Source of the DNA: Vulcanisaeta moutnovskia 768-28
Lineage (GTDB): Archaea > Thermoproteota > Thermoprotei > Thermoproteales > Thermocladiaceae
NCBI RefSeq assembly: GCF_000190315.1
Contig: NC_015151.1
Coordinates: 1,674,001 to 1,738,000 of the forward strand
Length of the DNA stretch: 64,000 nucleotides
Direction of reading: 5' to 3'
The stretch's first letter is position 1. Each line of letters opens with the position of its first letter. Shown here in pieces: positions 7,561-59,183 of the stretch. The notes beneath the pieces are model-generated. The model was given only the letters and a program-made list of their open reading frames with translations, was not told the DNA's origin and made no database searches. A program made the position numbers and the translations under genes.

Positions 7561-7630
7561 GGTGGTGGCAGGCCTTGCTCCTTCTGGGGTGGGGTAGGGT
7601 TTTTAGGTTGAAGGTTTGTGCTCTTTTTCA

Positions 7631-9004
7631 ATGGCATCCTTCCCCGGTGAACTCTTGGAAAATGGGGAGTGGGGGCCGACTACTCCCGCAATACCGGGGG
7701 AGGGCGTCCGTGAGGTGGAATTCTCGAATGTTAGGACAAACGTTGTTCGTCTATTACCCAACGGTTTTCAGGATAGGAAGTTGAGGAGACTTGCTAACAT
7801 CTCGGCTAAGTTATTTAACGAGGTTAATTATGAAAGGAGGCAACAGTTCTTCCGTGGGGAACAAGTGGATTTTAAGGGGACGTGGAAAAAGTATTATGAG
7901 AAGTATAAGGGAATACTAGGTGTTAATGCCCAGGCGGTGCTTCAGAAGAATAATGAGGCTTGGTCCTCATTCTTCTCCCTATTGAAGCTTAAGAAGGAGA
8001 GGAAATTACCACGTTTCCTAAAGCCAAACCCACCTGGCTACTGGAAGGATATGGAGACTAGAAGGAGGAAACTAATACTAGTTATTAGACAAGATAGGTA
8101 TGAGGTTGATGAGCAGAGGCATGTAATCATCCTCAAGGATTTTAAAATGGAGATTGAATTCGCTGGTAGGTTGAGGTGGTTTGGTAAGCAGGGTAGGCTC
8201 GAGATACACTATGACGAAACCAGGAATGCTTGGTACGCCTCAATACCTGTCGAGGTTGGTGTTGAGGAAACAAGGACTGGTAAGAGGAGTAAGTACATCG
8301 TGAGGGGAGAAAGGAGGAGTATACAAATCGCTACTCCTAAAGGGAGTAAGGTTGCTTCAATTGACTTGGGTGTTAACGTTTTGGCGAGTGTGGTGGTTAG
8401 TGATGGGACGTGGTTGCTGTACAGGGGTGTTAGGGCTAAGGAGGACTACTTCTACTTCCAGAGGAGGATTTCTGAAATTCAATCCTGGCTGGATAAGAAT
8501 AAGGACAGGCTCCTTGATGACGCAATTGAGGAGGTAAGGAGGGAGGTAGGGAGACTTCATGGCAAGCTAAGGAGGAGGTTGCTCCACCTCTACAGAAACC
8601 TGGCATCCCACCTCATTAAAAAGCTCCATGAACTAGGCGTCTCAACCATCTACCTTGGCTACCCATTCAACATTGCCCAGGAGAATGGTAACAAGTTCAC
8701 GGTGAACATGTGGTCATACCGCAAGTTAATGGAGGTCATTGAACTAAAGGCACAGGAGTACGGCATTAAGGTGTATGAGGTCCTTGAATACAACACGTCT
8801 AAATACTGTGCTTACCATGGTGTTGAGGTTAATAGACAACCGAGGGGTGTTGTTAACTGCCCAATGGGTCATAAATTGCATGCTGACCTAAACGGCGCAC
8901 TGAACATAATGAAGAAAGCCACAAACCCAGTGGTCCCAGCAATTAAAAAACCACTATCTTTCCTTGTCCTTCATAACAGAGTAGCACCCACAAAAGGGGT
9001 GTAA
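7631..9004 (+). CDS. tnpB: TnpB-family protein with unusual RuvC-II
   Basis: The protein (about 457 residues) has the TnpB/OrfB layout: an N-terminal helical block around KLFNEVNYERRQQF, a wedge region, then a split RuvC domain. RuvC-I is VASIDLGVNVLASVV and RuvC-III is HKLHADLNGALNIMKKA, both with the expected Asp. At the usual RuvC-II position (hydrophobic strand ending in Glu) it reads TIYLGYPFNIAQENG, with Gly instead of Glu. The zinc motif is also atypical: CAYH and later CPMGH. The ATG at 7631 is preferred; the coding could begin still later, near VRTNVVRLLPNG. It may be an active member of a divergent crenarchaeal subfamily or a cleavage-deficient one. Confidence 0.85.
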   Translation: MASFPGELLENGEWGPTTPAIPGEGVREVEFSNVRTNVVRLLPNGFQDRKLRRLANISAKLFNEVNYERRQQFFRGEQVDFKGTWKKYYEKYKGILGVNAQAVLQKNNEAWSSFFSLLKLKKERKLPRFLKPNPPGYWKDMETRRRKLILVIRQDRYEVDEQRHVIILKDFKMEIEFAGRLRWFGKQGRLEIHYDETRNAWYASIPVEVGVEETRTGKRSKYIVRGERRSIQIATPKGSKVASIDLGVNVLASVVVSDGTWLLYRGVRAKEDYFYFQRRISEIQSWLDKNKDRLLDDAIEEVRREVGRLHGKLRRRLLHLYRNLASHLIKKLHELGVSTIYLGYPFNIAQENGNKFTVNMWSYRKLMEVIELKAQEYGIKVYEVLEYNTSKYCAYHGVEVNRQPRGVVNCPMGHKLHADLNGALNIMKKATNPVVPAIKKPLSFLVLHNRVAPTKGV

Positions 9005-10323: not shown

Positions 10324-11505
10324 ATGAGGAGCAGTGGTTCACTATCGACAATACTCGCCGGAGTACTAGTACTAATTGCCCTACTCATGGGTATTGGCAT
10401 TGCCGTTGAGGTTATGTCCACGGTAATAACCCTGGAAGGCATAGCCGCTAACCACGTGAATACGGTGGGCAGGGTAGCAGCCACGTACAGCGGTCTAATA
10501 ACGCAGGGAGATACATTAATAAGCACCAAGGGTCCGGTGACGGTGATTGGTGCCGTGACGCCAAGTGGCTTTGAGGCAATTAACCTAACGACTTATGAGT
10601 ATGTAAATAACGGCACAGAACCCGAGTTACTGCTGACTAATGTTGGGCCTGTGATGCTTGACCCAACGCAACCAGTTACAAATAACCCAGCCCTAGATGC
10701 TAACCCAATTAGCTACTACCTATACCACTGGGTCTCCGCGGTGATAACCACGAGGCAGAACCAACAAAGCCAGTACTCAGGGGTCATAATAACACTGGGC
10801 AATAATTACTACTTACTGCACATAGACCCTAATTACGTGATTGGTCCTTTAAATAGCCTAAACACGTACATAACCAAGGATTATGGTATTGGGCAGTGGG
10901 GTTGCGAGGCATTATATGGTGGTATCGGTGTTGGCGGTTCATGGTCCACATGCCCAGTACCGCCACCTGGGCCAATAGGCACGGCCGTTTATAGTGGGTA
11001 CTGGCCGCAGATAATCATTAATCCCATTAATAACACTGCAATAGGTATAAGCCTGATAATCCCCAACGACACGAGCTTCATTAGACAGCCCCAATACTTC
11101 ACACTCTACGTACTGAGCCAAGGTAATGAGGCTTGGCTTAATTCAGCATGCCAGGGAACACACTCAATAACACAGATACCCAACCCAAACCCACCCTACA
11201 ACCCATTACCTGCACCGAATAATTGCACATTCGACATGACCTGGATACAATTCCCAAATCAAAGAGGCATTACGTGTTATAGCCACGGCTGGGTTTGGTG
11301 CACATTATCGCAGATAGTGACGTACAATATAACGATGAATATGAATCAACAAGTACCGAGTAAGTACTACCTAGTGATGGTAATTACATACCCGCAGGGA
11401 TACCCAAGCCAATGGTTCGTGTGGAACGTAACGAGCACAGGGCAGGGCTACCCAGTTTGGTTGGATGCGACTGGTCAACCGGCAATGGTTGAGATGCCGG
11501 GTTAG
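10324..11505 (+). CDS. Secreted or pilin-like surface protein
   Basis: The N-terminus has a short polar lead (MRSSGS) and one long hydrophobic segment (about residues 7-35), as in archaeal type IV pilin-like or membrane-anchored surface proteins. The remaining roughly 355 residues are Asn/Tyr/Pro/Thr-rich with several N-x-S/T sequons and paired cysteines (for example CPVPPPGPIG, FDMTWIQF region), typical of extracellular beta-rich proteins. A TATA-like box (about 10293-10303) lies 26 bp upstream of the ATG, suggesting a leaderless message. The giant surface-protein gene follows 179 bp downstream. The exact role is unknown. Confidence 0.7.
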   Translation: MRSSGSLSTILAGVLVLIALLMGIGIAVEVMSTVITLEGIAANHVNTVGRVAATYSGLITQGDTLISTKGPVTVIGAVTPSGFEAINLTTYEYVNNGTEPELLLTNVGPVMLDPTQPVTNNPALDANPISYYLYHWVSAVITTRQNQQSQYSGVIITLGNNYYLLHIDPNYVIGPLNSLNTYITKDYGIGQWGCEALYGGIGVGGSWSTCPVPPPGPIGTAVYSGYWPQIIINPINNTAIGISLIIPNDTSFIRQPQYFTLYVLSQGNEAWLNSACQGTHSITQIPNPNPPYNPLPAPNNCTFDMTWIQFPNQRGITCYSHGWVWCTLSQIVTYNITMNMNQQVPSKYYLVMVITYPQGYPSQWFVWNVTSTGQGYPVWLDATGQPAMVEMPG

Positions 11506-11684: not shown

Positions 11685-14600
11685 ATGTCAAAACCCAAAA
11701 CCAATTGGGAACTACCTAAACTAATAATACCAGTAGTAACTCTACTAGTAATAATAGGAATAGTTGCCGGGCTGGGACACCCAGCCTTAGCACAGCAGTA
11801 CGGACCAACATCAGTGCCAATACCACCAGTAACCTACACCTATACAATGTACTGGAACCTAACAGACGCAAGACTAACAATGACGTACCCACTCAGTACC
11901 TCTTACTGCCAAAGCTGTTATACCCTAATAAATCGCACAGTGCCTTGGTACTTCACAGCCGGTAAATCCTTCACCATATACATAGCCAACGCAAGCGACG
12001 TCTACTACTGGAACAGCCAGAGCCAGAGCTTTGTATTGTATTCACCTATTGAAATGACCGCTACAGCCACGGCAAACTCAACAGGAGGCGTAACCTGGAC
12101 AGTAAGCACAACACTAACCGGCGGAGTAACACCAAGCCAGGTCTACGCAAACTGGACAGTAGTGGTGGTCCTAAATAATTACGGAGGAGCGAACTGGATG
12201 GTATTTAATGTAACAACCGTAAATGCATCGTTAAACAGCCTAATGACTAACCTAACCAGCGTAAGTCCATCGACATACTTATCAACACCAACAGGCCCCT
12301 ACTACTTATTCAGACCAGTATATGGCGCTGAGACCACAAATAGCAGCCTATACGTGGTACTACCAGACCTATACTTCTTCTTCCTATATGTTGGCACGGC
12401 AACAAGCACAACATCAATATCACCGTTACCATCAACATCACAACTGGAGGCCTCAGTAACGCTGGGCACCGGCGTAACAGTCTTCGGACCAACCACCTAC
12501 AACAGCACAGTGTCAGGTGCCTCAACTAACATCTATGGCTATTCATACACGGGCTTCGGCCCAATCTACTACGTAACCAACGAGTTCAGCGGCCTGAACT
12601 CCGCAGACCACAACTACCCAAGCGTCACTGCCCAACCAATAACAATAACAGTTAATTACGTATACCCAAGCGGCCAGGCAGTAACACTATTCAACTATAC
12701 AACTGCAACAGAAAATAATGCAACTACACCGGAGTCATTTAATGCGGCTGTGGCATATACGTGGAATTATACCCATACTGGCGCATCAGGTATGGTAAGC
12801 TTAACGGCACTATGCAACGCCACTGGTGTTGACCCAGCATTGCTGGTTGGTATACCGGTGGTTTCATTCTACATAGGCAGTGTCTATGACCTAAAGGGCA
12901 ACCTAATAATTGGAAGTGCCAAAAACATACCCAACCCAATACTTGCGGAGAAACTATACGTAAAGTGGTTACTATCAACAACACCAACAGCCACCGTAGT
13001 CAGTGAGAACTACCTACGCTACTACGAATCAACACCAGCCCTGGTACCCGTCGGCTACTTCAGCGGTACTGGACCAGGCGCGCCATCATTTGCATCCACC
13101 GGATTCCCAACGCCGCAGCTCTACATATTCTATGAGAATCTGCCAGTATTCACGGCAGCAATATCGTCGGTTAGCTCAGGAGTGTCCATGGTCAATATAA
13201 CCAATGTATTCGTGTCTCTAATGCCAGTATTCATAAACATAACCCAGTACCAGCCAGGAGTTCCAGCATCAAGCCAGTTACCACTCAGCCCCAACATAGT
13301 ACCATACCTAACTGTGTACTACTTATACTCAACAACACCAACCATAAGCCAGACACCACCAACCAGCGCAGTACAGGGCATGCTATATTATGAGGAGCAA
13401 GTATGGACTAACGAGACAACCTACGGCACGTACTACCCAGCAACAATAGCCCAATTCCCACCATTTGAGCAATCCTCAGTATCCGGTGTGCTAGTTACAC
13501 CTGAGGTTAATTGGTTCCCAGCACCACCGCTCAGCGGTACGGTATCTGCCACAGCAAATGGTCCAACGTCAGTCACAATAACACCGCCAACATCGCAGCA
13601 GGTATACTACTACACCTTCTGGCTGCAGTACAATGGCATGACCGTGGGCTTTGGAACTTATGCGCTTGGTTATGAACCAGGTACTATCTACAATGAGCAA
13701 TACATGGTCAGTACACCAGAAATGCCAGTATTTGATGTGTATCCACTTAGCGAGAGTAATACAACATTATTATCATTCTACGACAATGCCACTGAACTGG
13801 CTGTAATGACACCAACGGGTGTTTTACCAAGTGGTACAATACAGTTTGCCAATGTAACCGTTGAGAGGGCATTCATAGCCGCGACATACACAGTCTATAA
13901 CGTGCAGTTCCTCAACCTATGCAATGAGACAATAACTTCGGGCACAGTCTACATAAGTGAGCTAACACCGAGTGGTATGTCCGTTACATTACCGCCAGTA
14001 CAGTTGAGTTCCTCGGCTTATATAATGAAGATAACAGCACCAATGGCCCTAGAGATATCATCAGTGTCCGGCGCGCCGTACATAGAGGCCATGTCACCAG
14101 TATTCAACTTCACATTGAACTACTACGGCTACGTAATGCCAAGCGTTAACTACACCAGTAGACAGCCCGAGTACAACTACATGCTAACTCCTGGCATTGT
14201 CAATGTTGTTTACTTCCCACTCATTGACATTAATATTCAAGTACTCAGTGAGACAACGCCGCAGTATCCACTACAGGGCTTCGTTGTAAATCTATACAGC
14301 GCAGTGACTGGGCAGAAAATGTGGGAAGCAATAACCAACTCGAGTGGCTATGTATACATAATGAATGTACCAATCAACGCCAGTTACATAACGCCAGTCT
14401 CATACGTAATGCTTAAGGTCAGGACAATAAGCCCAGCCACAGACAGTGTCTACCCATACGCCTCTGTGTCACAGCAGTATGGACAGACGTACCAGGCATA
14501 CGCAAGCGCTTTAGGAATACCGAGTGGCTACTACGCCTACACGCTTGGTACTAGGGGTCCATTCGATGAGAACTTAACGATTTACTACGAGCAGTTCTCA

Positions 14601-17600
14601 GTGCCAGTAACAACCGTATGCGGTCAAGTATTCCCAATAACCGTACCGGTTGAGAACCTACACATAATAGTAACTGATCTGCAGGGCAATGTGCTGAGCA
14701 GCCAGCCAGTCTACCCATGCGCAACGCCAAGCTACTGCCCAAGCTTCTACTACAACGTGACCCTAGTACTTGATGACCAGTACAGTCCATACTACCTAGC
14801 CAGCCAGTGGTTAGTATTCCCAACGTACTGGCTGAACCTAACCGACTTCAGGGTTGTTGGACAGACCTGGATGCAGCCTCAATACGAGGCTCTGGAGAGT
14901 ACATTCCAGTCATTACTAGCCGCTGATCAGGCAGCCTACCAGAGCGGCACAATTGGTTTACAGCAGTTTGCCGAGTGGTACGTGGGCAACTACAGCTACT
15001 ACACACTAGCCGCATTACTGGCTAACTACAGTACACCATCACCATTCGCAATATTCACATTCCCATCAATAGTACCTCACGAGGGCACAATATTCATGAG
15101 ACTATTCATGCCAGGCCAGGCATTCCAGATGAAGGTCTACTACCTAGGCCAGGAGGTATTCAACCAGATAGTGCCGGTGCCTTCACCTAATGAGGACGTG
15201 ATAATAACACCAACAGGACAGGTTGAGTACACCACAAGCAATGTAACTGTCTACATAGCTGGGCAGGCAGTGACAGTACCACCAAATGGCACAATAATAA
15301 TCGAGAGCAGTGTTTACCCAGTCACCTTCAACATAACGAGTAAGAGCGGCATATACCCAGTGGGCAACACCTACCTAGGACTAACATTCACAGACGTCCT
15401 ATACAGGGAGTACGTGATGCCACCATACTCAGCCCTAAGCACTAACATAGCCCAGAACTACATAAATAACACGGCCTATCCATTCAATGTAACAAGCTTT
15501 GGAATACTAACACCAAGCCAGCTTGAGCTACTGACAATGGGTACATACTCAATAATCGAGTCATACCAGACATCAACAGTTAATTACAACCCAAGCGCTG
15601 TGGCCAGCGAGGAGCTGATTGATAATGCCTACTCAATGGCTGGTTATGTACTGCCTAACCTAATGGGCTTCTTCGTTAATGCCAGCAGCCCAACAACAGG
15701 CCTAACACCACTATACATGACGAGTATATACCCGAACGTATTCAGCACAACGACGCCGAGTGCGGTGGCCTTTAACCTAACCATGGGCATACCAATATAT
15801 GCACATGTTGGTACATCAATAACAGCCACAGCAACGCCCAATGATACGTTCCTATACGCACCAAGCGCGGCCTACAGCGAGTATAGACTATTGGTCAATG
15901 AGTCGCTGATGGAGCCAGTAACGCCATTGCCGGCAGTCATTGACGGCTCATCAACCACATTATCAGCTAGTCCACTAACTGGCTTATACCCAATGACATA
16001 TGCAGTTGAGGTTTCACAGACGGCGAGCAGCCAGGTTAACTTCACATACTACACAGTGCCTAACCTAGCGAGCTATAGGTTGTGGGAGGCTTATGTTAAT
16101 GCCACTGGAATGAGCTCAGTCACCAATGCCACAGTTGGCATTTACGCAGCTAATGCAACTGGTTGGTACTACGTATACAGTGTTAATGTAACATCAACAT
16201 TCCAGCAGGCAATGGTTAGGACAGTACCACTATACATCTACCTGAGCTACAGCAAGATAACCAGTGTAGTCCAGTCACCAACTGAAGTGGCGGTAATACT
16301 GTACGTGAGTGGCAGCGGTACATACTACTTACTACCACCAGCCTACTATGGCGACCACACGCAGGTTGAGTATCCAGTAATAAGCAGCGGTTTCGGTGGT
16401 GTGGTGCATTACTACACGGAGAATTTGTACACTGTTGCGACGGGTTCAATGGCAGGAACAACGCAGACAATAACATTCACATACCCAACAGTGAACTCCA
16501 CGTGGTATCCATACTTCGGAAGCCCATTAACCGTGGTAATACCCGTTGGCTCTAATGGCGAGGCTGTGTTTGACGTGCCATGGTGGGCACCAACAACTGG
16601 AGCCTATGGTACAAGGATTGCGAGGTTCTGGATAATGGGCACAACAAGCACGACCAATGTTGGTTACGGCAGCATAACACCGGTAATAACACCAAGCCAG
16701 TACGTAGCTGGTACAGTATCACCACTGCCTGAGTATGCAGTCAGCAGCTATGTACTACTGAACTACATAACGCCAAGCGGTGGAGCAACGACAGTCTACA
16801 CCGGCGAGATACCGCCAGGCACAGTAACGAGCAGCGGGTCACTATACATGACAGCCATTGGCGCAGGCACAGGTGGCACATCAACGCCAATGCTAATGTT
16901 TGACACACTGTTCCCAGAGGACCTGTGGAACGTAACGATGAGCGCAATACAGGCTGTCAGTGGTGTCTATAACCTAAGGACAACAGCTCTAGAGAGCGTT
17001 GAGATCTACAACAATGCCACATTCCCAATATTCGTTACAGGCTTCATGTTCTCAACACCAACCAAGACATACTCACTAAGTGCACCAACAACTGAGGTAG
17101 GTCCAGGAGCCATCGTCGATGTACCCGCGCAGTACATCTACGGCAGCAGCTATGAGTTCACATCAACATGGTGCGACTTAGGTAACTACACACCATACAT
17201 ACCAGACCTATCGGCGACCTTCTACTACACACCACCCAACGCCACATTCTACCTAGCCAATGGAACGGCATTACCATTCACAGTATATCCAAATGGCACA
17301 GTAGCAATTAATGGTGTGACCTACAGCATAAGCCAGCTAGAGGCTCCATTGCAGTCACCGAGCATTAACTTCACGACACTCTACGCAGGCAGTGAGTTAG
17401 ACAACAGCAACACCACGGTTGCAATACCGCAGTACGGAGAGAGTGCCAGATCAAGTGTATACTATGAGTCCTACTATAACTACAGCAGTTCGATCGTTGG
17501 TGCTCAATCGTATGTGTATGACGACATGCCATACCCAGTCAATGGTAAGTGGGATATAGCTGGTTATGTTGGTGTTCCTCCATCATTGCTTAACCTATTG

Positions 17601-19151
17601 CCCAGCGCCAGCAGTGATACTGAGGCTAAGTTAGTCTTCACATACCCAACAATACCGCTAATGTCAATTGAGGATTGGGACGGTAGACCACTACCTAACC
17701 AGATGATTGTTGAGTACGGTACAGGCACATCACCAGTACTCTGCGCAGGCACTGCACCAATAGCCATTGACTTCAGTGGCGTTAATGGCCAATTACTACA
17801 GCCAATGCCAGTGGGCAGTAGGACTGTTGTGTATTGGTATGACAGCTGCTTGCTCTATACAATAACCAGTGGTGCCTACCCATACATCAACATCTATGAC
17901 ACAAGCATAAGCACTGACGTAAGCACACTGGGCAATGCAGCCACAACGGCAACTGTTGAGACCCACGTCGTACCCGCCACCGTGTACCTAAAGAGCGCCA
18001 CAGGCACTGGAATACCCGGCGCACTGGTTGTTGTGTTTGATCAGCCAACAATGGGTAATGAATTCCTAGGCTTCAACGTAACTGGTACTGACGGTTCAAT
18101 AACACCAGTTGACTATAGGATATACCCACCAGCCACAAGCCAACTACCACCAACCAATTACTACGTTGTTGTTTACTATGCAGCTAACGGCACACCATTA
18201 ACATGGCAGCAAATACACCAGGCAATAAGTAGTGGAACACCGCTTGAACTAGTGCCTGTATTTGAGAACACCTTCAGCATACAGAGGACTGTCACGGCCA
18301 CCGAGGCAATCGAGTCCTTCACACTAAGTAACATACTAACAACAGCAAATATAGTGGTTGTGCTATCAAGCTTCGGCCCAGCACCAGGCGTGACCCTAAG
18401 CTACAGCGTATCTGAACCAGAGTGCCCAGTGACAATAACAGCAGTGTCACCAGCATCAACAATTGTTGGCTATACATACACAGTATCGCCACTGGTGCCA
18501 TCACCAAGTACATGCACAACAACCACAGCAGTGAGTGGTACTGGAACGACCAATGCTCAGGGACAGTTAACAACGGCAACCTTCGTGACACCAATATCGC
18601 CGTTTGCAGCCCAAGTAACTGTGTCAGTGCAGTCATGGAAGGGAATACCACTGGGCTATACCTACACCTACTACGTAACGAGTAGCAATGCATCATCGCC
18701 AATACAGGTGTCAGTACCGGCTGTTGAGTTAACGGTGACTCCAGTGAGTGCCAGTGGTGCTCCATTGATGAGTGAGGCTACTGTGAATGTTACATGCCAG
18801 ACCCCAAGCGGTACTGTGCCAGTGGCCAGTGGTGTTGGTTCACAGACCGTTGTTGTTCCAATACCAAGCAGTGGTTCAATAACATGTACAGTGGCTGGTT
18901 ACAGCTATGGAAAGAGCGCGAGCACCACGGTGACGCTGACGAGTAGCCAGGCTGGGCAGACAATAACTAAGACACTAACAATACCAGTGAGCGGCTACTA
19001 CATACCTGGTGTGGGCTTCGTGCCTGTGAGCACATTCATACTGCTGGCTGTTGTGATAATAATCATAATAATACTAATAGTGATACTGCTAATTGAGTAC
19101 AGCAACTGGAGGAGGAGGAGACTAGCTGGCTTGCTGGGCCCGCCGAAGTGA
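11685..19151 (+). CDS. Giant cell-surface (S-layer-like) glycoprotein
   Basis: At 2488 residues this is by far the largest gene here. A signal peptide (PVVTLLVIIGIVAGLGHPAL within residues 15-36, cleavage likely after ALA-Q) is followed by about 2400 extracellular residues rich in Thr, Ser, Tyr, Pro and Asn, with very many N-x-S/T glycosylation sequons and few charges. A membrane segment close to the C-terminus (VVIIIIIILIVILLIEY) and a basic tail (SNWRRRRLAGLLG) anchor it. Local Ig-like or carboxypeptidase-regulatory-like pieces are suggested by blocks such as YPLQGFVVNLYSAVTGQKMW. Biased, uniform codon use and the strong leaderless promoter fit abundant expression. It could be the S-layer protein or a giant adhesin. 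The last 145 residues recur in the 173-residue protein at 33617-34138. Confidence 0.82.
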   Translation: MSKPKTNWELPKLIIPVVTLLVIIGIVAGLGHPALAQQYGPTSVPIPPVTYTYTMYWNLTDARLTMTYPLSTSYCQSCYTLINRTVPWYFTAGKSFTIYIANASDVYYWNSQSQSFVLYSPIEMTATATANSTGGVTWTVSTTLTGGVTPSQVYANWTVVVVLNNYGGANWMVFNVTTVNASLNSLMTNLTSVSPSTYLSTPTGPYYLFRPVYGAETTNSSLYVVLPDLYFFFLYVGTATSTTSISPLPSTSQLEASVTLGTGVTVFGPTTYNSTVSGASTNIYGYSYTGFGPIYYVTNEFSGLNSADHNYPSVTAQPITITVNYVYPSGQAVTLFNYTTATENNATTPESFNAAVAYTWNYTHTGASGMVSLTALCNATGVDPALLVGIPVVSFYIGSVYDLKGNLIIGSAKNIPNPILAEKLYVKWLLSTTPTATVVSENYLRYYESTPALVPVGYFSGTGPGAPSFASTGFPTPQLYIFYENLPVFTAAISSVSSGVSMVNITNVFVSLMPVFINITQYQPGVPASSQLPLSPNIVPYLTVYYLYSTTPTISQTPPTSAVQGMLYYEEQVWTNETTYGTYYPATIAQFPPFEQSSVSGVLVTPEVNWFPAPPLSGTVSATANGPTSVTITPPTSQQVYYYTFWLQYNGMTVGFGTYALGYEPGTIYNEQYMVSTPEMPVFDVYPLSESNTTLLSFYDNATELAVMTPTGVLPSGTIQFANVTVERAFIAATYTVYNVQFLNLCNETITSGTVYISELTPSGMSVTLPPVQLSSSAYIMKITAPMALEISSVSGAPYIEAMSPVFNFTLNYYGYVMPSVNYTSRQPEYNYMLTPGIVNVVYFPLIDINIQVLSETTPQYPLQGFVVNLYSAVTGQKMWEAITNSSGYVYIMNVPINASYITPVSYVMLKVRTISPATDSVYPYASVSQQYGQTYQAYASALGIPSGYYAYTLGTRGPFDENLTIYYEQFSVPVTTVCGQVFPITVPVENLHIIVTDLQGNVLSSQPVYPCATPSYCPSFYYNVTLVLDDQYSPYYLASQWLVFPTYWLNLTDFRVVGQTWMQPQYEALESTFQSLLAADQAAYQSGTIGLQQFAEWYVGNYSYYTLAALLANYSTPSPFAIFTFPSIVPHEGTIFMRLFMPGQAFQMKVYYLGQEVFNQIVPVPSPNEDVIITPTGQVEYTTSNVTVYIAGQAVTVPPNGTIIIESSVYPVTFNITSKSGIYPVGNTYLGLTFTDVLYREYVMPPYSALSTNIAQNYINNTAYPFNVTSFGILTPSQLELLTMGTYSIIESYQTSTVNYNPSAVASEELIDNAYSMAGYVLPNLMGFFVNASSPTTGLTPLYMTSIYPNVFSTTTPSAVAFNLTMGIPIYAHVGTSITATATPNDTFLYAPSAAYSEYRLLVNESLMEPVTPLPAVIDGSSTTLSASPLTGLYPMTYAVEVSQTASSQVNFTYYTVPNLASYRLWEAYVNATGMSSVTNATVGIYAANATGWYYVYSVNVTSTFQQAMVRTVPLYIYLSYSKITSVVQSPTEVAVILYVSGSGTYYLLPPAYYGDHTQVEYPVISSGFGGVVHYYTENLYTVATGSMAGTTQTITFTYPTVNSTWYPYFGSPLTVVIPVGSNGEAVFDVPWWAPTTGAYGTRIARFWIMGTTSTTNVGYGSITPVITPSQYVAGTVSPLPEYAVSSYVLLNYITPSGGATTVYTGEIPPGTVTSSGSLYMTAIGAGTGGTSTPMLMFDTLFPEDLWNVTMSAIQAVSGVYNLRTTALESVEIYNNATFPIFVTGFMFSTPTKTYSLSAPTTEVGPGAIVDVPAQYIYGSSYEFTSTWCDLGNYTPYIPDLSATFYYTPPNATFYLANGTALPFTVYPNGTVAINGVTYSISQLEAPLQSPSINFTTLYAGSELDNSNTTVAIPQYGESARSSVYYESYYNYSSSIVGAQSYVYDDMPYPVNGKWDIAGYVGVPPSLLNLLPSASSDTEAKLVFTYPTIPLMSIEDWDGRPLPNQMIVEYGTGTSPVLCAGTAPIAIDFSGVNGQLLQPMPVGSRTVVYWYDSCLLYTITSGAYPYINIYDTSISTDVSTLGNAATTATVETHVVPATVYLKSATGTGIPGALVVVFDQPTMGNEFLGFNVTGTDGSITPVDYRIYPPATSQLPPTNYYVVVYYAANGTPLTWQQIHQAISSGTPLELVPVFENTFSIQRTVTATEAIESFTLSNILTTANIVVVLSSFGPAPGVTLSYSVSEPECPVTITAVSPASTIVGYTYTVSPLVPSPSTCTTTTAVSGTGTTNAQGQLTTATFVTPISPFAAQVTVSVQSWKGIPLGYTYTYYVTSSNASSPIQVSVPAVELTVTPVSASGAPLMSEATVNVTCQTPSGTVPVASGVGSQTVVVPIPSSGSITCTVAGYSYGKSASTTVTLTSSQAGQTITKTLTIPVSGYYIPGVGFVPVSTFILLAVVIIIIIILIVILLIEYSNWRRRRLAGLLGPPK

Positions 19152-19279: not shown

Positions 19280-20317
19280 GTGGGTGGGCAAGCCAATAAG
19301 ATTAATAGGGATGAGTTGCTCAGGCTTCTTAGGGAGGATGAGGAGCTTAGGCTAGCCGTAATGGGTTTGCTTGGCATTGTTGATGTTCAATCATCACTAA
19401 GGCAATTAATCAATGCCATTAACAAACTTGCCGAGGCCCAGACCAGGTCTGTCAATGCGATGCAGGGCATTGCCGAGGGTGAGACGAGGATTACCGAAAT
19501 GCTCGGTAAGGTGACTGACATGCTGGCGAAGATCAATGAGATGATTATGGACCTCGCGGAGACCCTGAGCAGGACCATCGACATGGTCGAGAGGCTCGCC
19601 AAGGGGCAGGAGGAGCTGGGCAGCGCCATTAAGCAACTCACCGAGGTCCAAAGGGTTACCTGGGAGGCCGTTAAGCAGTTAATTGATGGTGAGGGCAAAA
19701 TACTCGACTTACTAAGGCAGTCCCTTGACTCGCAGGGTAGGCTTTGGCAGGAGGTTAGGGTCCTTCAGGAGGGCCAGAACAACCTATTGGTTGAGGTAAA
19801 GAGGTTAGGTGAGAATATCGAGAGGTTGTGGCAGGAGGTTAAGGCCATGAGGGAGGAGGAGACTAGGTTGCGTGAGGGTCAGGAAAGGCTTTGGGAGAGG
19901 TATGATAGGCTTGATAGGAAGTTATCGGCGCTCGGCGCCAGGTGGGGCGTGTTCAGTGAGGAGGCGTTTAGGAGAACAATCGAGGAATTACTCAGTGGAG
20001 TTGGTTACAAGGTTGAGAAGTGGAGTTATAATGACGCGGAGGGCTACGTGTTCGGATATCCAAGCGTTGTTGACCTGGACATAGTGATTATGGATGACAA
20101 GGCCTTTGCCGTGGAGATAAAATCCTCAGTAAGTAGAAGCGACCTAGTGGTATTTAAACGCATTGCGGAGCTTTACGAGAGGGTCACGGGTAGGAGACTC
20201 GATGCCAAGTACCTGGTGACCTACTTCATTGGCGAGAGGGATGAGAAGTCCGTGATTGACCTGGCCAACTCCCTGGACATAAAGATCGTAGAGCCCGAGG
20301 AATTAACGAGGCAATGA
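19280..20317 (+). CDS. Coiled-coil protein with PD-(D/E)XK nuclease-like C-terminus
   Basis: The N-terminus DELLRLLREDEELRLAVMGL and the following block up to DVQSSLR define a paralogous family also seen at 31373-32155. A long coiled coil follows (about residues 45-215). The C-terminal domain has PSVVDLDIVIMDDKAFAVEI followed by KSS: the Asp and the E-x-K of a PD-(D/E)XK nuclease core, as in the DUF3782-like families of hyperthermophiles. GTG at 19280 is used. The stop overlaps the start of the HepT-MNT gene (ATGA), so the two are co-translated. DNA cleavage is inferred, not shown. Confidence 0.78.
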   Translation: MGGQANKINRDELLRLLREDEELRLAVMGLLGIVDVQSSLRQLINAINKLAEAQTRSVNAMQGIAEGETRITEMLGKVTDMLAKINEMIMDLAETLSRTIDMVERLAKGQEELGSAIKQLTEVQRVTWEAVKQLIDGEGKILDLLRQSLDSQGRLWQEVRVLQEGQNNLLVEVKRLGENIERLWQEVKAMREEETRLREGQERLWERYDRLDRKLSALGARWGVFSEEAFRRTIEELLSGVGYKVEKWSYNDAEGYVFGYPSVVDLDIVIMDDKAFAVEIKSSVSRSDLVVFKRIAELYERVTGRRLDAKYLVTYFIGERDEKSVIDLANSLDIKIVEPEELTRQ

Positions 20318-21096
20318 GCGTGATTTCCATGAGACTCAAGGGAATCCTCGAATTACTAACGAAGTACTTCGGAGAATTCCAGGCAATACGGCGGAGTGGT
20401 GGGAGTATCTACGCAATCGAGAGGCTTGCGCAATTAACGATACAGGCATTGCTGAACATGGGCGCGATGCTCGCGGTGGAGCTGAGGGATGAGAAGCCCG
20501 AGACATATAGGGGCATTGCTGATTACCTATCCAATAAACTAGGCCTTAGTGAGGACTTGAGGAGATTCCTGAGGAGCCTCGCCGGCTTTAGGAACGTGTT
20601 GGTTCACGGGTATGCGGAGATTGATAGGGGCCTTGAGGAGGAGGCCTTCAGGGAGATGGAGGAGAGGTTGCCAACCATTCTCGAGAAAATAAGCAGCCTC
20701 ATAATGAGCATCGGTGACCCGGGGCAGATAGGCATTGAGGAGTTGAGGGTTAGGCTAAGGCCAGTGTTTGAGAGGCATGGCGTCAAGTTCGCGTTCCTAT
20801 TCGGCTCAAGGGCCAGGAAGGAGGTTGGTAAGGACTACGACATCGCTATTTCAGCAAACCTCAGGAGCGCCCTGGAGATTGGCGGGTTAATAGTGGATAT
20901 AGCCGAGGCCCTGGGCGTAAGTGAGGACTTAGTCGACGTGGTCCACATAGAGAGCGCGGACGCATCAATCCTCTACTCAGTGATTAGTGATGGCGTGGTG
21001 ATCTACGGCAATGAGGATGAAGCCGTGAACTACCTATGGAGGAGGTACCTGGAACTCCTCGACATAAATGAGTACGTAAACCACCTAGAAAGGTGA
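20314..21096 (+). CDS. HepT-MntA fusion (HEPN toxin and nucleotidyltransferase in one chain)
   Basis: Residues 1-130 are a HepT-like (DUF86) HEPN domain with the RNase motif RNVLVHGY, an exact R-x4-H-x-Y at residues 93-100. The Tyr is the residue that MntA modifies with AMP in studied pairs. Residues 150-260 form an MNT nucleotidyltransferase with FLFGSRARKEVGKDYDIAIS; the position of the second catalytic Asp of the GS-x10-D-x-D motif holds Ala (D176-I-A178). Toxin and antitoxin are normally separate genes. The gene overlaps the PD-(D/E)XK-like gene upstream by 4 bp, which suggests a joint module. Whether the MNT half is still active is uncertain. Confidence 0.85.
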   Translation: MSVISMRLKGILELLTKYFGEFQAIRRSGGSIYAIERLAQLTIQALLNMGAMLAVELRDEKPETYRGIADYLSNKLGLSEDLRRFLRSLAGFRNVLVHGYAEIDRGLEEEAFREMEERLPTILEKISSLIMSIGDPGQIGIEELRVRLRPVFERHGVKFAFLFGSRARKEVGKDYDIAISANLRSALEIGGLIVDIAEALGVSEDLVDVVHIESADASILYSVISDGVVIYGNEDEAVNYLWRRYLELLDINEYVNHLER

Positions 21097-33616: not shown

Positions 33617-34138
33617 CTACTCAGGTGGCCTTATAAGTCTCGCCAGTCTCTCCCTCCTCCACCTAGCATATTCAATTAAACCAATGACTATTAGTATTAT
33701 GACTATTATGATTACCACGGCAATTGCTATCAAAGTGCCTATTGGTATGAAGCCTATGCCTGGTACGTAATAACCACTGACCGGTACTACCAAGGTCACT
33801 GATATTGCCTCCCCACTCTCGTTTGCGGTGAGAATCACGGTCTTGCTTGAATAAACACCAAAGGAGTAGGCATAGGCTCTGCAGGTTATTGAGCCTGTAC
33901 TCGGTATTGGTATCACAGTGCTCATAAGGCCTATATTACTTACATTGTACCCTGCGCATGATAAGCCGACGGTAGCATACTTCGTTAGTGGCATGCCGTT
34001 TGCTGATAATGCGGTTATGCTTACGTTGACGGCAGGTATGTATATGGGTAATTGAACTTGCTGAGCATACAAAACCGAGGCAATACCCATAAGTATGGCA
34101 AGCGCCATAATCATTAATAGGTATTGAGACCTCACCAC
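33617..34138 (-). CDS. Stand-alone membrane-anchor module of the giant surface protein
   Basis: The protein (173 residues) has a signal peptide (LLMIMALAILMGIASVLYA-Q), about 100 extracellular residues, and a C-terminal membrane segment with a basic tail. From PAVNVSITALSANGMPL to the end it matches the last 145 residues of the giant protein: TVIPIPSTGSITC against TVVVPIPSSGSITC, PVSGYYVPGIGFIP against PVSGYYIPGVGFVP, then the Ile-rich membrane helix and LIEYARWRRERLA. It could be a second S-layer stalk subunit, or an anchor that caps gaps in the layer. A TATA-like TTTATTT lies about 24 bp upstream of the GTG start. It is alone on its strand between the mobA and HDAC genes. Confidence 0.78.
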   Translation of the reverse strand: MVRSQYLLMIMALAILMGIASVLYAQQVQLPIYIPAVNVSITALSANGMPLTKYATVGLSCAGYNVSNIGLMSTVIPIPSTGSITCRAYAYSFGVYSSKTVILTANESGEAISVTLVVPVSGYYVPGIGFIPIGTLIAIAVVIIIVIILIVIGLIEYARWRRERLARLIRPPE

Positions 34139-34292
34139 GTTATTTACATTGTGCGGGGAAATAAATCACTAACTCACAATAATTAGCCAAAGATTTAGGA
34201 TCAGCGCTATTAACCTAAATCACTGATCATCAAGCCCAGCATCATCACGCAGGTACGCATTAACTATGGTAAATTATAAGTATTTAGGTTAT

Positions 34293-58627: not shown

Positions 58628-58649
58628 CCCCATTAAGAAAAACAAGACA

Positions 58650-58968
58650 GGGACCAGGCCTGGAGGACCTACCCAGTCCTCCCCTGGGCAAAACCCAGGC
58701 CGATGGGTTCGGAGGCCGAAACCCGTGCTCTGTGTTGTATGGTAAGCCAAGGACCACCGGTACCTCAATGATAGCCGGTCCCCTGGGGCGTCCACGCCGT
58801 AGTCGGTCAACCGTAGGGTTGATCGGCTACGGAACCCGACGAACCGGGTTAGGCCCGGGAGGGAGCGGCCCTAAGTCGGGGTGGGCGCGTTCAGGGGGTT
58901 GCCGGTTGGAGAATGGGCCGGTGAAATCCCTGGTTTACCATACAACACAGAGCACGGGGTTGGGTCTC
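58650..58968 (+). ncRNA. ffs: Signal recognition particle 7S RNA
   Basis: The secondary structure fits archaeal SRP RNA in order. GGGACC at 58650 pairs with GGTCTC at 58963-58968 (helix 1). Near the 5' end are the hairpins GGAGGAC...GTCCTCC and CCTGGG-CAAAA-CCCAGG (helices 3 and 4). A roughly 23-bp helix joins GCTCTGTGTTGTATGGTAAG (58729 on) with the segment ending CATACAACACAGAGC near 58953 (helix 5). The helix 6 hairpin CAACC-GTAG-GGTTG holds the SRP19-binding loop. The helix 8 loop TAGGCCCGGGAGGGAGCGGC binds SRP54. The length is about 319 nt. It assembles with SRP19 and SRP54 to target secretory proteins, such as the surface proteins in this window. Confidence 0.92.
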
Positions 58969-59183
58969 ATTCTTAGCCAACTCAGTTGTCTAGTAAGGGG
59001 TGCTTTGATTAATTAGTTATGATGCTTATAGATTGAATGCGTAATACATATTATGCGAAATAAAATCACTGCAATAATAACAATAGGAAGAATAATAAGA
59101 TGAGTTCTGGATCTAAGCTAAATGATGAAAAATATGGGTTAATTTCCTAGGAAATTACGGATGCTGTTGGGTATCAAAACTAA

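Follow-up and report, generated by a model that had tools for sequence, protein, structure and literature searches.

Genes and features at the locus

The window, that is, the whole 64,000-nucleotide stretch of the Vulcanisaeta moutnovskia 768-28 genome analysed here, contains a small gene on the reverse strand and a very long gene on the forward strand, the products of which end in the same kind of membrane-anchor module. The features are the following, with positions counted within the window:

33617..34138 (-), the small gene, read from a GTG: a stand-alone anchor-module protein of 173 aa, composed of a signal peptide, a single beta-sandwich domain, a membrane helix and a basic cytosolic tail
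34064..34138 (-), its signal peptide, residues 1-25, placed by the modelled helix 2-25 and by alignments, with presumed cleavage
33779..34039 (-), its ectodomain (residues 34-120), a beta-sandwich with homology to the giant protein's final domain
33620..33742 (-), its C-terminal part, residues 133-173: the membrane helix followed by the cytosolic tail, EYARWRRERLARLIRPPE
34159..34178 (-), promoter-like element TGTGAGTTAGTGATTTATTT, conserved upstream of the small gene
11685..19151 (+), gene for the giant, a candidate S-layer protein of 2488 aa from a family that spans the order
18714..19148 (+), region encoding the giant's own anchor module (residues 2344-2488), to which the stand-alone protein corresponds

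The A/Q junction of the signal peptide (AQQ or AQE) is invariant across 11 genomes. The small gene is flanked by a histone-deacetylase-family gene on one side and by two MobA/CobY-like nucleotidyltransferase genes on the other, with no obvious wall gene adjoining it. At 173 aa its product is not a very large, Ser/Thr/Asn-rich, canopy-forming protein, and no Pfam or NCBIfam family was found above cut-off for either the small protein or the giant. Elsewhere in the window are a 260-aa frame in which HepT-like and Pol-beta-type nucleotidyltransferase domains are fused (20314-21096, +), a TnpB-like transposon protein judged by eye (7616-9004, +) and an archaeal SRP RNA (58648-58970, +). The HepT and nucleotidyltransferase parts of such toxin-antitoxin systems are usually separate genes.

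About 24 bases ahead of the small gene's start codon lies the end of a 17-base element, TGTGAGTTAGTGATTTA, and a TATA-like TTTATTT is centred about 24 nt upstream of the GTG. The core of the element is kept in all 11 aligned genomes, and together with the TATA-like box it looks like a leaderless archaeal promoter. Co-regulation of the two genes by a common promoter motif was considered and rejected, as the 17-mer occurs once in the window, once as an exact copy in the genome, and not at the giant gene. The two genes do not form an operon and are not co-transcribed. Between the deacetylase gene and the small gene lies a C/D-box-like small RNA (GTGATGA ... CTGA, about 50 nt; 34199-34250, -), which is conserved in most Vulcanisaeta genomes; an Rfam search of the region upstream of the small gene, including this RNA, returned no family.

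Match between the small protein and the giant

Residues 34-173 of the small protein align by BLASTP with residues 2344-2488 of the giant with 75/145 identities (52%), 106/145 positives and E 2e-36, collinearly except for a single gap of 5 residues. Because long hydrophobic helices match one another easily, the ectodomain was scored separately: alone, it reached a score of 186 against the last domain of the giant, whereas shuffled sequences gave 35.5 +/- 6.5 (z = 23) and every other stretch of the giant scored at most 43. The similarity thus extends beyond the hydrophobic helix. Identity amounts to 39/87 in the ectodomain and 36/53 in the juxtamembrane hairpin, helix and tail, the helix and tail (residues 133-173) being the segment of greatest likeness. 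Homology covers the last domain, the helix and the EYxxWRRxRL tail, with a profile E of 2.5e-66. The preliminary description had read the small protein as a signal peptide plus the final domain and helix of the giant, nearly collinear, encoded about 14 kb away; the 145-residue alignment bears out the first point, and the second agrees with a measured gap of 14.5 kb between genes that lie tail to tail on opposite strands. In the whole genome (one contig of 2,298,983 bases), the giant and the small protein are the only copies of the anchor module.

The giant as a probable wall protein across the order

Of 45 genomes of the order, 35 matched a profile of the anchor module, as a rule with a single copy each, and wherever the assembly is good the module forms the end of a frame of about 2400-2900 residues. 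The giant of the window has the size, the signal peptide and the helix expected of a Thermoproteales S-layer giant. It resembles T. tenax TTX_1887, a protein of 2,663 aa with a signal peptide, Ser/Thr/Asn-rich composition and a C-terminal helix that was proposed as the S-layer protein (PMC3189178), and Thermoproteales lattices have a spacing of about 30 nm with pillars across a 25 nm gap (PMC5744192). From this likeness and from the pillared lattice, the giant is very probably the S-layer protein. Directly upstream of it (10324-11505, +) lies a gene for a 393-aa secreted protein with a pilin-like N-terminus, which keeps this position throughout Vulcanisaeta, even in the genome that diverges most (34% identity), and is a candidate for a better-placed partner of the giant.

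Distribution and origin of the stand-alone copy

The stand-alone copy is present in 12 of 12 Vulcanisaeta genomes; one of these is a draft assembly rich in frame breaks, and there such a break splits the small gene. Wherever both genes lie on one contig in this genus, they are convergent and 14-22 kb apart. No stand-alone copy was found in the other genera of the family or in Pyrobaculum-like and Thermoproteus-like genomes, except for a 90-residue frame in one fragmented Thermoproteus-like genome. The possibility that a diverged small gene sits at the same locus in the sister genera was rejected, since the deacetylase gene there stands without it; viral contigs were likewise without a match to the module, and carriage by viruses was set aside. 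As most sister genera lack the small protein, this kind of wall does not depend on it.

The small gene is under purifying selection, with dN/dS of about 0.07-0.19, close to the value for the module of the giant. In the tree, the small proteins form a single clade (98/97) beside the Vulcanisaeta giants, nested within the giant anchors of the order. On this phylogeny the small protein descends from the anchor module of the giant, the end of which was duplicated at or before the base of the genus. A long-branched giant (L029) is placed beside the small clade, so that the timing of the duplication is approximate. The small clade also has an invariant ectodomain pattern of its own, SANGMPLxKYAxVGL, which differs from that of the giant.

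Short partners in other families of the class

With a broader profile, other families of the class yielded giants about 1560-1955 residues long that likewise terminate in this type of module, and at least 12 genomes of these families also carry a stand-alone frame of about 200-300 residues (mostly 230-260). This longer form consists of a signal peptide, the last two domains, the helix and the tail (L138-L149, L152); one further frame of the two-domain type (L137) may be a cut giant. The two-domain forms are split from Vulcanisaeta by a 100/98 branch, so that stand-alone anchors arose at least twice. The preliminary description had proposed a search of relatives for similar pairs, and such pairs do exist: the pair is genus-wide in Vulcanisaeta, and a giant with a short copy arose separately in other families of the class.

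A third form, a microprotein about 50 residues long and reduced to the helix and an EYxxWRxxR tail, occurs in 16 genomes of other families of the class (L157-L167, L193-L208). By eye, the microprotein genes occupy conserved positions, either beside thiI or beside a pair of methyltransferase and metallo-beta-lactamase genes, and pN was lower than pS in every pair compared (0.16-0.36). A search of ten genomes for the EYxxWR tail motif was too strict to recover the small protein and was replaced by a profile search. Over 81 genomes, the microprotein profile matched almost only giants, stand-alone modules and microproteins, and in the present genome its only matches were the giant and the small protein. 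Genus g28, the richest in microproteins, has one in 7/7 genomes; genus g27 has the two-domain form only. Further secreted single-helix proteins with similar domains and no tail motif were seen in Vulcanisaeta and Pyrobaculum-like genomes (L022, L025, L150, L151, L174, L175).

Predicted structure and a possible stalk role

As modelled (mean pLDDT 84.9), the small protein contains a signal helix, a seven-strand sandwich at residues 36-117, a hairpin and a helix at residues 133-169, which is mostly the membrane span itself and which is predicted to cross the membrane and continue into the basic tail; it has a single sandwich domain, about 85 residues long, and lacks a coiled coil. For the last 500 residues of the giant, the model was of low quality in everything that precedes the final domain (mean pLDDT 55), and it was used for that domain only. 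Among solved structures, the modelled small-protein domain matches best the SlaB chain (chain B) in the S-layer of S. acidocaldarius, with a Foldseek E of 1.8e-3 and a Z of 9.5 over 83 residues, rmsd 2.1 and 22% identity. However, the unrelated small protein 6hif_Y reached a Z of 9.4, and transthyretin, carboxypeptidase and CnaB domains reached 6.5-8, so that the SlaB match points to a common fold rather than kinship. A profile of 13 modules found no SlaB chain among PDB sequences up to E 10.

These results bear on the earlier suggestion of a two-part wall similar in concept to SlaB, with the small protein as a stalk or filler unit. SlaB is indeed the top solved-structure match, and a filler unit is possible, but the stalk role, in which the small protein would be the main pillar raising the giant canopy off the membrane, is improbable. 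One such sandwich domain is about 4 nm long; set against the 25 nm gap, the small protein cannot be a stalk by itself, and since the giant has its own anchor, no separate stalk is needed. Besides the single domain, the lack of a coiled coil, the equal scores of unrelated folds and the lack of both an operon and a sequence relation to SlaB, the small protein is absent from Caldivirga, Thermoproteus and Pyrobaculum, all of which have the giant.

Proposed role of the small protein

Tentatively, and at somewhat less than an even chance, the small protein is taken to be an auxiliary subunit of the membrane base of the S-layer, co-assembling with the foot of the giant. The last pillar domain, helix and tail of the giant were duplicated to give a separate secreted, membrane-anchored protein, which would insert through the same helix and EYxxWRRxRL tail and pack against or beside the pillar feet of the giant, either in mixed oligomers or between pillars, thereby adding anchoring density or spacing and no canopy mass. 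Contact between the two proteins would run through the shared helix, tail and juxtamembrane part. This is the best explanation because the short partners retain these parts and shed the pillar and the canopy. A precedent exists in Sulfolobus islandicus, in which a paralogue that has part of SlaB in common with it helps to anchor the S-layer (PMC6712394). The similarity of helix and tail may, however, only reflect common descent.

The duplicated anchor could instead have been recruited to a role outside the wall, e.g., as a docking or adhesion domain that serves some other secreted protein at the membrane. The distinct invariant ectodomain pattern of the small clade, the lack of transcriptional linkage and the neighbouring deacetylase-family and nucleotidyltransferase genes would all fit such a role, which nevertheless seems unlikely, considering that the helix, tail and juxtamembrane part remain closest to those of the giant and that the arrangement of giant plus short copy evolved twice. 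Rather unlikely as well is a regulator of wall growth, i.e., a short protein that, as competitor or chaperone, would cap anchor sites or free them during insertion of the giant or at division. An anchor without canopy or stalk could fill an anchor site and leave the lattice unextended, and the microproteins with only helix and tail fit a dominant-negative or spacer role, whereas the conserved ectodomain of the small protein would be unneeded by a mere helix competitor. The order of motif, helix and basic tail, with a PG-containing motif before the helix, also resembles archaeosortase tags, in which case the shared end would be only a processing tag, a sorting signal removed by an archaeosortase-like enzyme. 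This is very improbable: no archaeosortase-core gene was found in the genome (TIGR04178 is absent here and present in three control genomes), no CTERM family matched, and the tail is conserved.

Returning to the auxiliary base subunit, the results suggest that long and short anchors together hold these walls. A broader generalization, doubtful on balance, is that they belong to a wall system not described in the literature found: giants with a mixed membrane base and short partners that share the helix and tail. The partners would carry zero, one or two ectodomains and be of separate origin in at least two lineages, and the conserved EYxxWRxxR tail may organise them from the cytosolic side. 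In the same literature there was no solved structure of a Thermoproteales wall. The finding bears on how S-layers made of a single giant are held, spaced and inserted on crenarchaeal membranes. A detached anchor in every Vulcanisaeta genome, together with recurrent short partners, leads to the testable claim that the pillar foot is a mixed assembly, and the conserved cytosolic tail would offer a handle on any inner machinery ordering the wall.

Comparison with known systems

The giant of TTX_1887 type shares the whole anchor module by homology, including the last domain, the helix and an EYxNWRRRRL tail, and the module was seen in all well-assembled Thermoproteus and Pyrobaculum genomes examined. 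There, however, it occurs only at the C-terminus of a protein about 2,700 residues long, and no stand-alone copy carrying the tail was found in the complete Thermoproteus and Pyrobaculum genomes.

SlaB (PDB 8QOX; PMC6911244, PMC10903991) is likewise secreted and S-layer-linked, with a C-terminal membrane helix and a beta-sandwich ectodomain of what may be a similar fold. It differs in having 2-3 sandwich domains rather than one (PMC6911244, PMC10903991) and a helix of about 132 residues that forms a trimeric coiled-coil stalk, in contrast to the small protein, which has no coiled coil. Moreover, slaB adjoins slaA, whereas the small gene lies 14.5 kb from the giant on the opposite strand, and SlaA is without an anchor of its own, whereas the giant keeps its own.

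Among tested precedents, M164_1049 / SSO1175 (PMC6712394) comes closest: it is a membrane-anchored, partial paralogue of the anchor protein SlaB, helps to hold SlaA and, like the small protein, is encoded elsewhere in the genome. It is larger and thermopsin-like, with predicted helices at both ends, and the part it shares is that of SlaB, whereas the small protein of Vulcanisaeta shares the canopy protein's own anchor.
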